Source: Thermococcus sp. (GTDB lineage Archaea; Methanobacteriota_B; Thermococci; Thermococcales; Thermococcaceae). From it: a DNA stretch of 12,961 nucleotides. Position 1 is the stretch's first letter. Each line of letters starts with the position of its first letter. Position numbers and translations under genes: made by a program. Shown one piece after another: positions 48 through 2,859 of this stretch. Location of the stretch: positions 1-12,961 of the forward strand of contig JAMONK010000088.1 of assembly GCA_027065835.1 (NCBI GenBank). The letters run 5' to 3'. Under the pieces are notes generated by a model. It saw nothing but the letters and a program-made list of their open reading frames with translations. It did no database searches and was not told the origin of the DNA.

Positions 48-909
<862 letters not shown>

Positions 910-931
910 GATAGGTACATGTCGCGGAGGG

Positions 932-939
932 TTTATAAA
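932..939. promoter_or_regulatory. Palindromic TATA box shared by 5S rRNA and the divergent gene
   Basis: TTTATAAA is a perfect palindrome centred at 935.5. It predicts transcription starts about 25.5 bases away on each side: near 910 on the minus strand, where the 5S rRNA begins, and near 961-962 on the plus strand, where the ATG of the next gene lies. Purine-rich sequence flanks it upstream in both orientations (CGGAGG on plus, GCAAGA on minus), as expected for TFB recognition elements. No second TATA-like box serving either gene is visible in the 52 bases between the two starts. Confidence 0.75.
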
Positions 940-961
940 TCTTGCGGTGGTTCTCACGACG

Positions 962-2479
962 ATGGAAGACGAACTCATGAAGTTGCTCAACTGGGCGGGC
1001 GTCCGTGAACCCCTGACCCCAGCCAGGAGGATCCGGGAATTCCAGAGAACGCTACAGAGAGTAAAGAACGGAGAGGACGTGAGGGTAAGCGGATTCCTTA
1101 TAGGTAGAAAGCCTCCATACACCCCTGCCGATGCGGTTTACTGTCTCCTGTCACCGATACCTCCCTCCGAACTCCTCAGGCTTTCGGAGAAGGAACCCAG
1201 GGCTTATATTGTGCTGAAGATAACGGAGAGGACGGAACTGAGGGGCGATGTAAAACCCGGAAGATACGTGGTTGTGGAGGGGATCCTGGATGCCTACCGT
1301 TGGGGAAATCTCAGGATGATGCACTCGGTGAGCATTGAAGGGAGGGACTACTCCGAGTACTGGCTTGAGTACAAAAACGTCGCATTGAGTAGGGGTGAAG
1401 TTGAGGATCTCCTCTCCCAGACGCTTTACATCGGTGCGGAGATGCAGAGGGCCCTAACCTACGCCCTCTACGGAACCCCCGCTGTTTTAGGAGCGCCGGG
1501 AAACTGGGGGGAGGGGGTGGAGTTTGCGGTCTACCGGTACAAAGCCGAAAACGAACTCCTTGGCCTCTGGACGGCGCTCAAGTACCTCCATTCTCTTATC
1601 CCATGGGAGCTCCGGTTGAGGCGCGAGAGGTTCATCGAGGGCGTTGACCCGTTTCTCGACCTCGACCTGAGGCTCGGAAACCCCAATTCCAGGGGGCTGC
1701 GTTATTTCGTCCCGTACTCCAAGAGGAGCCTGCGCGGGATCCCCAAATGGGCCAGTAGGGAGCTGATGTACAAGAGGGCCGTGGGGCTGCTGCCCGAGAA
1801 CAGGGACGCGGATCCAACGGAAATGATAGCCAGGGTATCCGAGGCCCCCTTCGTCCTGGTTCCCTGGGAGGAGAGACCATACTACGAGAGGAACCGGGAG
1901 ATGGAGGAACTCATCCCCAATTTCATTGCCGCGATATTCCTCGGAAGAAGCAGGGTGAACTCCATGAACCCCGGTACGCTTGAGGACTTCAGGAGAAGGT
2001 TCATCAGGTGGCAGGAGGAGAAGAGGGGAGAATACGGGAAAAACTTCGAGGCCCTGATATCCCCCAGCGGATTGATGAACCCGTCACTCCGCTACCACCT
2101 CAACGTTCGCCTCTTCGGCTCGGCCGCACGCTTTGAAGGGGGTCTAAAACGATCAATATCGAGGGACGTCCTCAGGATAAACGACGCCGTGGTGAACGAC
2201 TGGATGACGGTTCTGAAGGATCGACCCGACGTGGCCATGAGGTTGCTGAAAGAATACGAGCGGTACATTCCAAGGGATGTGAGGGCGAATCGGGCCCTGA
2301 GGATGTTCAGCGACCTCGCATCCACCAGCCCCCAGGGGGAAGTTACGAGGGAGGAGTTCATGACGGCGCTGCTCGGTGCCGGGTTCAGCAGAGCCGATGC
2401 AGAAGAGATCATCGAAAGGTTCATAGCCGCGGGGTACATATACGAACCGTTCCCGGGCAGACTGAGGCTGGTGAAGTGA
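962..2479 (+). CDS. Uncharacterised protein, possibly a P-loop-less MCM-related protein with C-terminal winged helix
   Basis: Soluble 505-residue protein with no signal peptide or membrane segment. I do not recognise it as a whole. Residues about 38-125 look like an OB-type beta region. Residues about 143-177, SRGEVEDLLSQTLYIGAEMQ followed by RALTYALYGTPAVLG, recall the segment leading into the MCM ATPase core, but the expected P-loop GxxGxGK[ST] is absent (here GAPGNWGEG). Residues about 458-504, ending IYEPFPGRLRLVK, closely resemble the winged helix at the end of archaeal MCM proteins. The ATG at 962 is chosen because the TATA box at 932-939 predicts initiation exactly there, giving a leaderless message. 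An upstream in-frame ATG at 896 would lie inside the 5S gene. The stop overlaps the next start (TGATG), so it is coupled to RNase P component 4. The MCM link is inference; an unrelated wHTH protein is the alternative. Confidence 0.85.
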   Translation: MEDELMKLLNWAGVREPLTPARRIREFQRTLQRVKNGEDVRVSGFLIGRKPPYTPADAVYCLLSPIPPSELLRLSEKEPRAYIVLKITERTELRGDVKPGRYVVVEGILDAYRWGNLRMMHSVSIEGRDYSEYWLEYKNVALSRGEVEDLLSQTLYIGAEMQRALTYALYGTPAVLGAPGNWGEGVEFAVYRYKAENELLGLWTALKYLHSLIPWELRLRRERFIEGVDPFLDLDLRLGNPNSRGLRYFVPYSKRSLRGIPKWASRELMYKRAVGLLPENRDADPTEMIARVSEAPFVLVPWEERPYYERNREMEELIPNFIAAIFLGRSRVNSMNPGTLEDFRRRFIRWQEEKRGEYGKNFEALISPSGLMNPSLRYHLNVRLFGSAARFEGGLKRSISRDVLRINDAVVNDWMTVLKDRPDVAMRLLKEYERYIPRDVRANRALRMFSDLASTSPQGEVTREEFMTALLGAGFSRADAEEIIERFIAAGYIYEPFPGRLRLVK

Positions 2480-2859
2480 TGCGTATGTCAAAGAGGTCCA
2501 TAAGGGGGAGGGAGCAGAGGGAGAAGAGAAGGATAGCACGGGGGAGGATAGACGTACTCTTCACCCTTGCGGAGAGGGTATTCCCGTACGAGCCAGAGCT
2601 GGCCGATCGGTACGTTGAGATAGCACTCGCAGTCCAGCGCAAGGCCAAGATACGGATGCCCAGAAAGTGGAAGCACCGCTACTGCAAAAGATGTCATTCG
2701 TTTCTCGTTCCCGGCGCCACCGCAAGGGTACGGCTCAGAGGGGGACACGTAGTCACCAAGTGTCTGAGGTGCGGACACATCATGAGGTATCCCTACCTAA
2801 GGGAGCAGAAAGAGCGGAGAAAAAAGGGGACCTCCAAGAGCGTTCATTCTTCCCCATGA
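2479..2859 (+). CDS. rnp4: Ribonuclease P protein component 4 (Rpp21/Rpr2 family)
   Basis: Zinc-binding protein subunit of archaeal RNase P, the ribonucleoprotein that removes 5' leaders from pre-tRNA; it acts with Rpp29 on the specificity side of the RNA. The protein is about 126 residues and strongly basic. It has an N-terminal helical Arg/Lys-rich part (RGREQREKRRIARGRIDVLF), then a zinc ribbon with YCKRC and KCLRCGHIMRYP, giving two CxxC pairs 22 residues apart. Length and motifs match Pyrococcus Rpp21. The start ATG at 2479 shares its A with the preceding TGA stop. GGTGA at 2470-2474 is four bases before this ATG and ten before the in-frame ATG at 2485, so 2485 is equally plausible. The 3' end overlaps the convergent cyclase gene by 16 bases. 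Confidence 0.94.
   Translation: MRMSKRSIRGREQREKRRIARGRIDVLFTLAERVFPYEPELADRYVEIALAVQRKAKIRMPRKWKHRYCKRCHSFLVPGATARVRLRGGHVVTKCLRCGHIMRYPYLREQKERRKKGTSKSVHSSP

Follow-up and report, generated by a model that had tools for sequence, protein, structure and literature searches.

A palindromic TATA box very probably shared by 5S rRNA and a divergent leaderless mRNA in Thermococcus

Features of the 5S locus

The window, that is the whole stretch of 12,961 nucleotides that was analysed (Thermococcus sp., contig JAMONK010000088.1), carries a 5S rRNA gene on the minus strand and, divergent from it, a gene for a 505-residue protein followed by rnp4, with a symmetric TATA box between the two units. The relevant features are the following.

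786..907, minus strand: 5S rRNA gene (Rfam RF00001, model positions 1-120, full length, 87.9 bits, gathering score 38)
909, minus strand: predicted 5S transcription start, the G after C910, 22 nt beyond the box, placed by spacing and by the pyrimidine/purine rule
923..931, plus strand: BRE position of the gene direction, CGCGGAGGG (BRE part 1.9 bits, site total 11.4)
932-939, no strand: palindromic TATA box TTTATAAA, proposed to be common to both directions, the sole copy in the window (0.055 expected from base composition)
940..948, minus strand: BRE of the 5S direction, ACCGCAAGA in the minus-strand reading (BRE part 3.2 bits, site total 12.9)
961, plus strand: predicted mRNA start, the G after C960, one base 5' of the ATG
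962..2479, plus strand: uncharacterised 505-residue protein, most likely read from a leaderless mRNA, with its ATG at 962, 22 nt beyond the box
2479..2859, plus strand: rnp4, RNase P component 4 (NCBIfam NF003045, 189.9 bits, scan from 2476), joined by a TGATG overlap to the stop of the 505-residue gene

The centre of the box (935.5) lies 26.5 nt from the ATG at 962 and 26.5 nt from the predicted 5S start, G909, which confirms the earlier note in placing a symmetric box about 26 bases from the 5S start on one side and from the ATG on the other. The 5' end of the 5S as delimited by Rfam (907) is found 28.5 nt from the same centre, and the two predicted starts, 909 and 961, are 52 bp apart. The reading frame of the 505-residue protein extends upstream without a stop as far as an ATG at 896, within the 5S gene, so that the start of this gene is not fixed by the window alone; it is fixed by the relatives.

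Promoter sites were scored with a profile derived from 220 intergenic upstream sequences, all taken from 400 kb of one related genome; in background upstream regions the best scores have a median of 4.1 and an upper quartile of 10.2 bits. Among the 25,888 position-orientation pairs of the window, the box ranks first when read towards the 5S (12.9 bits) and third when read towards the gene (11.4 bits), and it is the sole site with at least 9 bits in both directions. The next plus-strand site between about 700 and 1000 scores 3.5 bits versus 11.4 for the box, and the earlier claim that no alternative TATA-like box is visible here stands. Sites with at least 9 bits both ways number 13 in 400 kb of genome G024, so two-way boxes as a kind are not rare.

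Two further sites came to light in this scoring. The PIMT gene, placed 3' of the 5S on the minus strand (window 720-753), seems to own a promoter, with a box at 746-753 that scores 11.5 bits (rank 2 in the window) and lies 23 nt before its ATG at 722, again suggesting a leaderless mRNA. At positions 18999-19060 of L156 in genome G024, two ATGs 56 nt apart flank one A+T-rich box that may be a further shared promoter; this was the one plausible protein-coding pair of 74 divergent pairs with ATGs 45-62 nt apart in 400 kb.

The 505-residue protein has no match in Pfam, NCBIfam or PDB sequences, and the 12 of its 28 homologues that carry a name are all called hypothetical; its C-terminus may resemble an MCM-type winged helix. 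The gene order is constant in the 30 loci examined in this respect (L001-L030), rnp4 coming next at -5 to +3 nt in every one of them and being preceded by GGTGAT in 27. This order supports the earlier proposal that the 505-residue gene would be expressed together with rnp4.

Start spacing and promoter replacement among relatives

Within the family, the 505-residue protein was matched in 79 of 94 genomes and the 5S in 89 of 94, with at least two 5S matches in 76. The comparison set consists of the 64 loci, out of the 79, with a recognisable divergent 5S. In L036 the contig begins inside the 5S, and the same box and spacing are visible. The 5S is inverted in three loci (L053, L054 and L063, with two distinct upstream sequences, that of L063 being the same as that of L054), no 5S is present in the examined stretch of five (L072-L076), and the contig ends in two (L037 and L068). 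L010 has lost the start of the 5S and the box. Three of the 79 matches stood outside the comparison, namely the one in G049, which by its coordinates agrees with the shared spacing, and two fragments, in G003 and G053. At the contig end of L068 (genome G081) other DNA occupies the expected position of the 5S and a TATA-like CTATAAAC is placed 23 nt before the ATG, an arrangement that may be an assembly join.

TTTATAAA is present in 63 of the 64 loci and TTTATAAG in the other one (L043). The expectation that the symmetric box would be conserved across relatives is borne out as far as its identity in these 63 loci is concerned; its symmetry is lost in L043, where both genes are kept and where TTTATAAG still agrees with the TATA consensus whichever way it is read.

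Of the 64 loci, 57 have an in-frame ATG placed 21-24 nt beyond the box. The first in-frame ATG of these 57 is placed at 22 nt (19 loci), 23 nt (19), 21 nt (11), 24 nt (5), 20 nt (2) or 19 nt (1). Box-to-ATG distances in the background are two-peaked, at about 21-23 nt (leaderless) and about 29-34 nt (leadered), and the spacing of 21-24 nt, which matches the first peak, is therefore the leaderless spacing of the lineage. The sequence of the spacer between a CGGT near the box and the ATG is variable, and in the shared loci a conserved Phe is preceded by an N-terminus of 22 to 27 residues. Since the N-terminus changes in length and the first ATG does not leave the range of 19-24 nt, the start codon tracks the box and not the protein. 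Position -1 of the ATG is G in 47 of the 57 shared-box loci and position -2 is C or T in 43, which matches the pyrimidine/purine start rule given for T. onnurineus in the accessible text of PMC5316973 and on these grounds puts the predicted mRNA start at 961. The A+T content of the spacer is 0.56 both in the shared loci and at other 5S copies, with no signature of a melting region. Taken from the sequences, the 505-residue protein is most likely translated from a leaderless mRNA.

The ATG of the seven other loci stands 48-54 nt away from the 5S box. All of these loci bear a second TATA-like site (6.2-9.9 bits), which is located 21-24 nt before the ATG in all but L032. In this locus the second site precedes the ATG by 16 nt and a further in-frame ATG by 22 nt. 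The loci with an inverted 5S likewise show a site (8.2 bits in L053, 6.2 bits in L054), located 21 nt upstream of the ATG. The replacement sites of L030, L031 and L054 are moderate, at 6.2-6.8 bits. Among the loci without a 5S, scored for L072-L075, the best site is placed 21 nt before the ATG in L074 and 30-32 nt before it in L072, L073 and L075.

The proposal of one box common to the 5S and a leaderless divergent mRNA thus finds strong support in the compared sequences, through the spacing of 57 of 64 loci and the second sites of the seven exceptions. On this basis, one and the same TATA box is very probably used for 5S rRNA and for a leaderless mRNA that runs on into rnp4, and TTTATAAA at 932-939 is, with high probability, a bidirectional archaeal core promoter for the 5S and for the leaderless 505-residue/rnp4 mRNA.

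In a tree of 75 N-terminal sequences the displaced and the inverted loci cluster together (support 99/97), although the program flags long branches among the inverted loci, whose exact place is unsure; a separate group (98/90) is made up of the genomes in which no 5S lies next to the gene. The shared arrangement probably has a single origin, at the base of Thermococcus sensu lato, and was kept from then on. In the simplest history one clade, the only one in which 5S inversions are seen, would have lost the sharing through a new gene promoter, a direction of change that we infer because the root is a midpoint.

BRE strength and competing readings of the box

The 5S direction outscores the gene direction and has the stronger BRE in all 64 loci, and the mRNA is for this reason probably the weaker product. 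In the proposed mechanism TBP would sit on the symmetric box and TFB would then settle on one of its sides. With TFB at the stronger BRE (940-948), the polymerase would start the 5S near 909 on the minus strand; less often, TFB at the weaker BRE (923-931) would lead to a start at about 961 on the plus strand and to a leaderless mRNA encoding the 505-residue protein and rnp4. One clade would have escaped from this sharing by gaining a separate promoter for the gene.

A regulatory switch could be built on the same mechanism, to which it adds without excluding it: TFB orientation would trade 5S against the gene/rnp4 mRNA, and the two products would be anticorrelated in vivo. One box can carry only one initiation complex at once, a point of established biochemistry that speaks for such a trade. 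The bidirectional promoters of E. coli, as described in the accessible text of PMC12825309, resemble the present box in that pseudo-symmetric DNA is bound by the polymerase in either orientation, one at a time, and differ from it in using sigma-type -10/-35 elements, where TBP and TFB would act here. There, one product is repressed when the other is substantially activated, so that strong one-way activation can repress the opposite direction; at the five promoters examined, however, basal activity did not suffice for competition (PMC12825309). A 5S promoter may be strong enough for it. Against the switch stand the further 5S copies of the family (at least two matches in 76 of 94 genomes), the unequal BREs of the two directions and the fact that no regulator site was found, and we consider it unlikely. 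The wider version, a genus-wide control in which 5S initiation would sterically limit the 505-residue/rnp4 mRNA, rRNA output would set the RNase P subunit in opposite phase, TFB orientation would decide and release of the one clade would have required a new promoter, is decidedly unlikely.

The box might instead serve the 5S alone, with a leadered mRNA that starts elsewhere, for example within or beyond the 5S gene, and with a spacing that is merely inherited packing. This reading draws on the frame open to 896 in the window and on the 22 of 57 shared loci without an in-frame stop at or after the box (a stop lies between box and ATG in 23 and overlaps the box in 12). A ribosome-binding motif GGDGRD, which if transcribed would mean a leader, is found no more than 20 nt before the ATG in 11 of the 57, the window being one of them (GGTGGT at -16, adjoining the 5S BRE). 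Locus L010 also retains the gene without the box: this complete genome (G071, one contig) lacks, by deletion, both the shared box and the 5' part of the 5S, the remainder of the 5S directly adjoins the ATG, and the gene should accordingly have lost its promoter. However, no plus-strand site from about 700 to 1000 exceeds 3.5 bits outside the box, the motif is absent in 46 of the 57 loci whereas rnp4 has its GGTGAT in 27 of 30, and wherever the ATG lies far from the box a further TATA-like site appears near the ATG. A box for the 5S alone is thus very improbable.

The other 5S copies place the palindrome in context. A TTTATAAR box without the 505-residue gene is present at 38 of 54 such copies (TTTATAAA in 37, TTTATAAG in 1), and the palindrome is therefore rejected as a sign of selection for two-way use: it is the ordinary 5S box in these organisms. 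The 16 copies without TTTATAAR (L079-L090, L105, L106, L129 and L130) all come from g3 genomes, whose 5S copies bear other boxes, several of them asymmetric, e.g. TTTTTAAA; the 505-residue protein is matched in two of nine g3 genomes (G004 and G012), in neither case beside a 5S. The symmetry of the box permits two-way use and is no proof of it, and the argument rests on start spacing and replacement sites.

Second 5S copies often have, as their divergent neighbour, a gene starting MG(L/I)(L/I)ED (L096-L100, L078, L102, L107-L109 and similar loci). By eye, this neighbour usually has its own TATA-like site and a ribosome-binding motif, e.g. GAGGTGAT, in contrast to the leaderless 505-residue gene.

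The BREs of the shared and the other copies were compared with the same profile. Over the 57 shared loci the 5S-side BRE part has a mean of 4.26 bits and the gene-side BRE part one of 0.19, the latter ranging from -3.4 to 2.0 (1.9 in the window); the 38 other box-bearing copies average 4.06 on the 5S side and -3.61 on the opposite one. The comparison within genomes covered 29 of the 57 shared-locus genomes, and in 24 of them (17 of 20 distinct pairs) the shared locus has a better gene-side BRE than the second 5S copy, a result that is suggestive only, because related genomes are not independent and the profile derives from one genome. The same comparison in four displaced genomes gave two better, one equal and one worse. 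The gene-side BRE falls below -1 bit in 15 of the 57 shared loci, 12 of which are of the GGTGCA type (-3.4), and this type accounts for all five of the 29 pairs with the opposite result. Half of the GGTGCA loci (6 of the 12 among the 57) also have a ribosome-binding-like motif before the ATG. This group is the weak point of the shared-box model.

That two-way initiation is real but noise, a symmetric 5S box firing backwards next to a gene that merely tolerates it, would agree with the palindrome at 38 of 54 other copies and with the non-functional character that the P. furiosus authors assume for antisense RNA from bidirectional transcription (accessible text of PMC6640164); it is highly unlikely in view of the constant start spacing in 57 of 64 loci, the further sites of the exceptions and the higher opposite BRE at this 5S in 24 of 29 genomes. 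For the shared promoter, the pattern of spacing and BRE, as read from the compared loci, looks like constraint on a promoter in use.

Relation to known promoters and meaning for Thermococcus

Pyrococcus furiosus and Thermococcus belong to the same order of archaea, and bidirectional promoters, bacterial and archaeal, were reportedly surveyed by Warman et al. in 2021. According to the accessible text of PMC6640164, pairs of starts that share a TATA box about 50 bp apart have been mapped in P. furiosus, one of them being confirmed in vitro. These BRE-TATA-BRE promoters are like the present one in having one near-symmetric TATA box with a weaker BRE on one side (there the antisense side), and the distance from start to start is also close, about 49-50 bp there and 52 bp between the starts predicted here. 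In the set analysed in that study the second product is an antisense RNA, whereas here the first product is 5S rRNA and the second a predicted leaderless operon mRNA, an arrangement present in 57 of 64 related loci.

Leaderless mRNAs make up about 14% of T. kodakarensis mRNAs (PMC4247193) and were assigned to 117 T. onnurineus genes (PMC5316973), as far as the accessible texts of both papers go. The mRNA proposed here would resemble the first set in the distance of its TATA box from the start, about 23 nt in T. kodakarensis (a median of 23 bp; PMC4247193), and the second in the placement of the box between -30 and -20 (PMC5316973). Given its predicted start, it would resemble both in starting at, or within 8 nt of, the start codon, in the use of ATG, which is preferred there, and in the pyrimidine that precedes the start (PMC4247193, PMC5316973). 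The terms '5S rRNA' and 'bidirectional' are absent from the main texts of these two papers, as are 'rRNA', 'tRNA' and 'stable RNA' from the main text of PMC12825309. No archaeal rRNA promoter shared with an mRNA occurred among the literature matches listed, whose coverage leaves outside most subscription journals and the supplementary tables of start sites. Two-way archaeal TATA promoters are already known, and the present one would be a conserved version that joins a stable RNA to an mRNA.

In the P. furiosus study, to the extent of its accessible text, two-way promoters are regarded as giving rise to antisense RNA without function, whereas the single box described here appears to yield two useful products. 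Natural cases exist in which the link between the 5S and the gene was broken and replaced. Thermococcus is moreover a genetically tractable genus (T. kodakarensis), and the locus offers a compact system to measure the partition of TFB orientation at one box and to see whether its two products compete.
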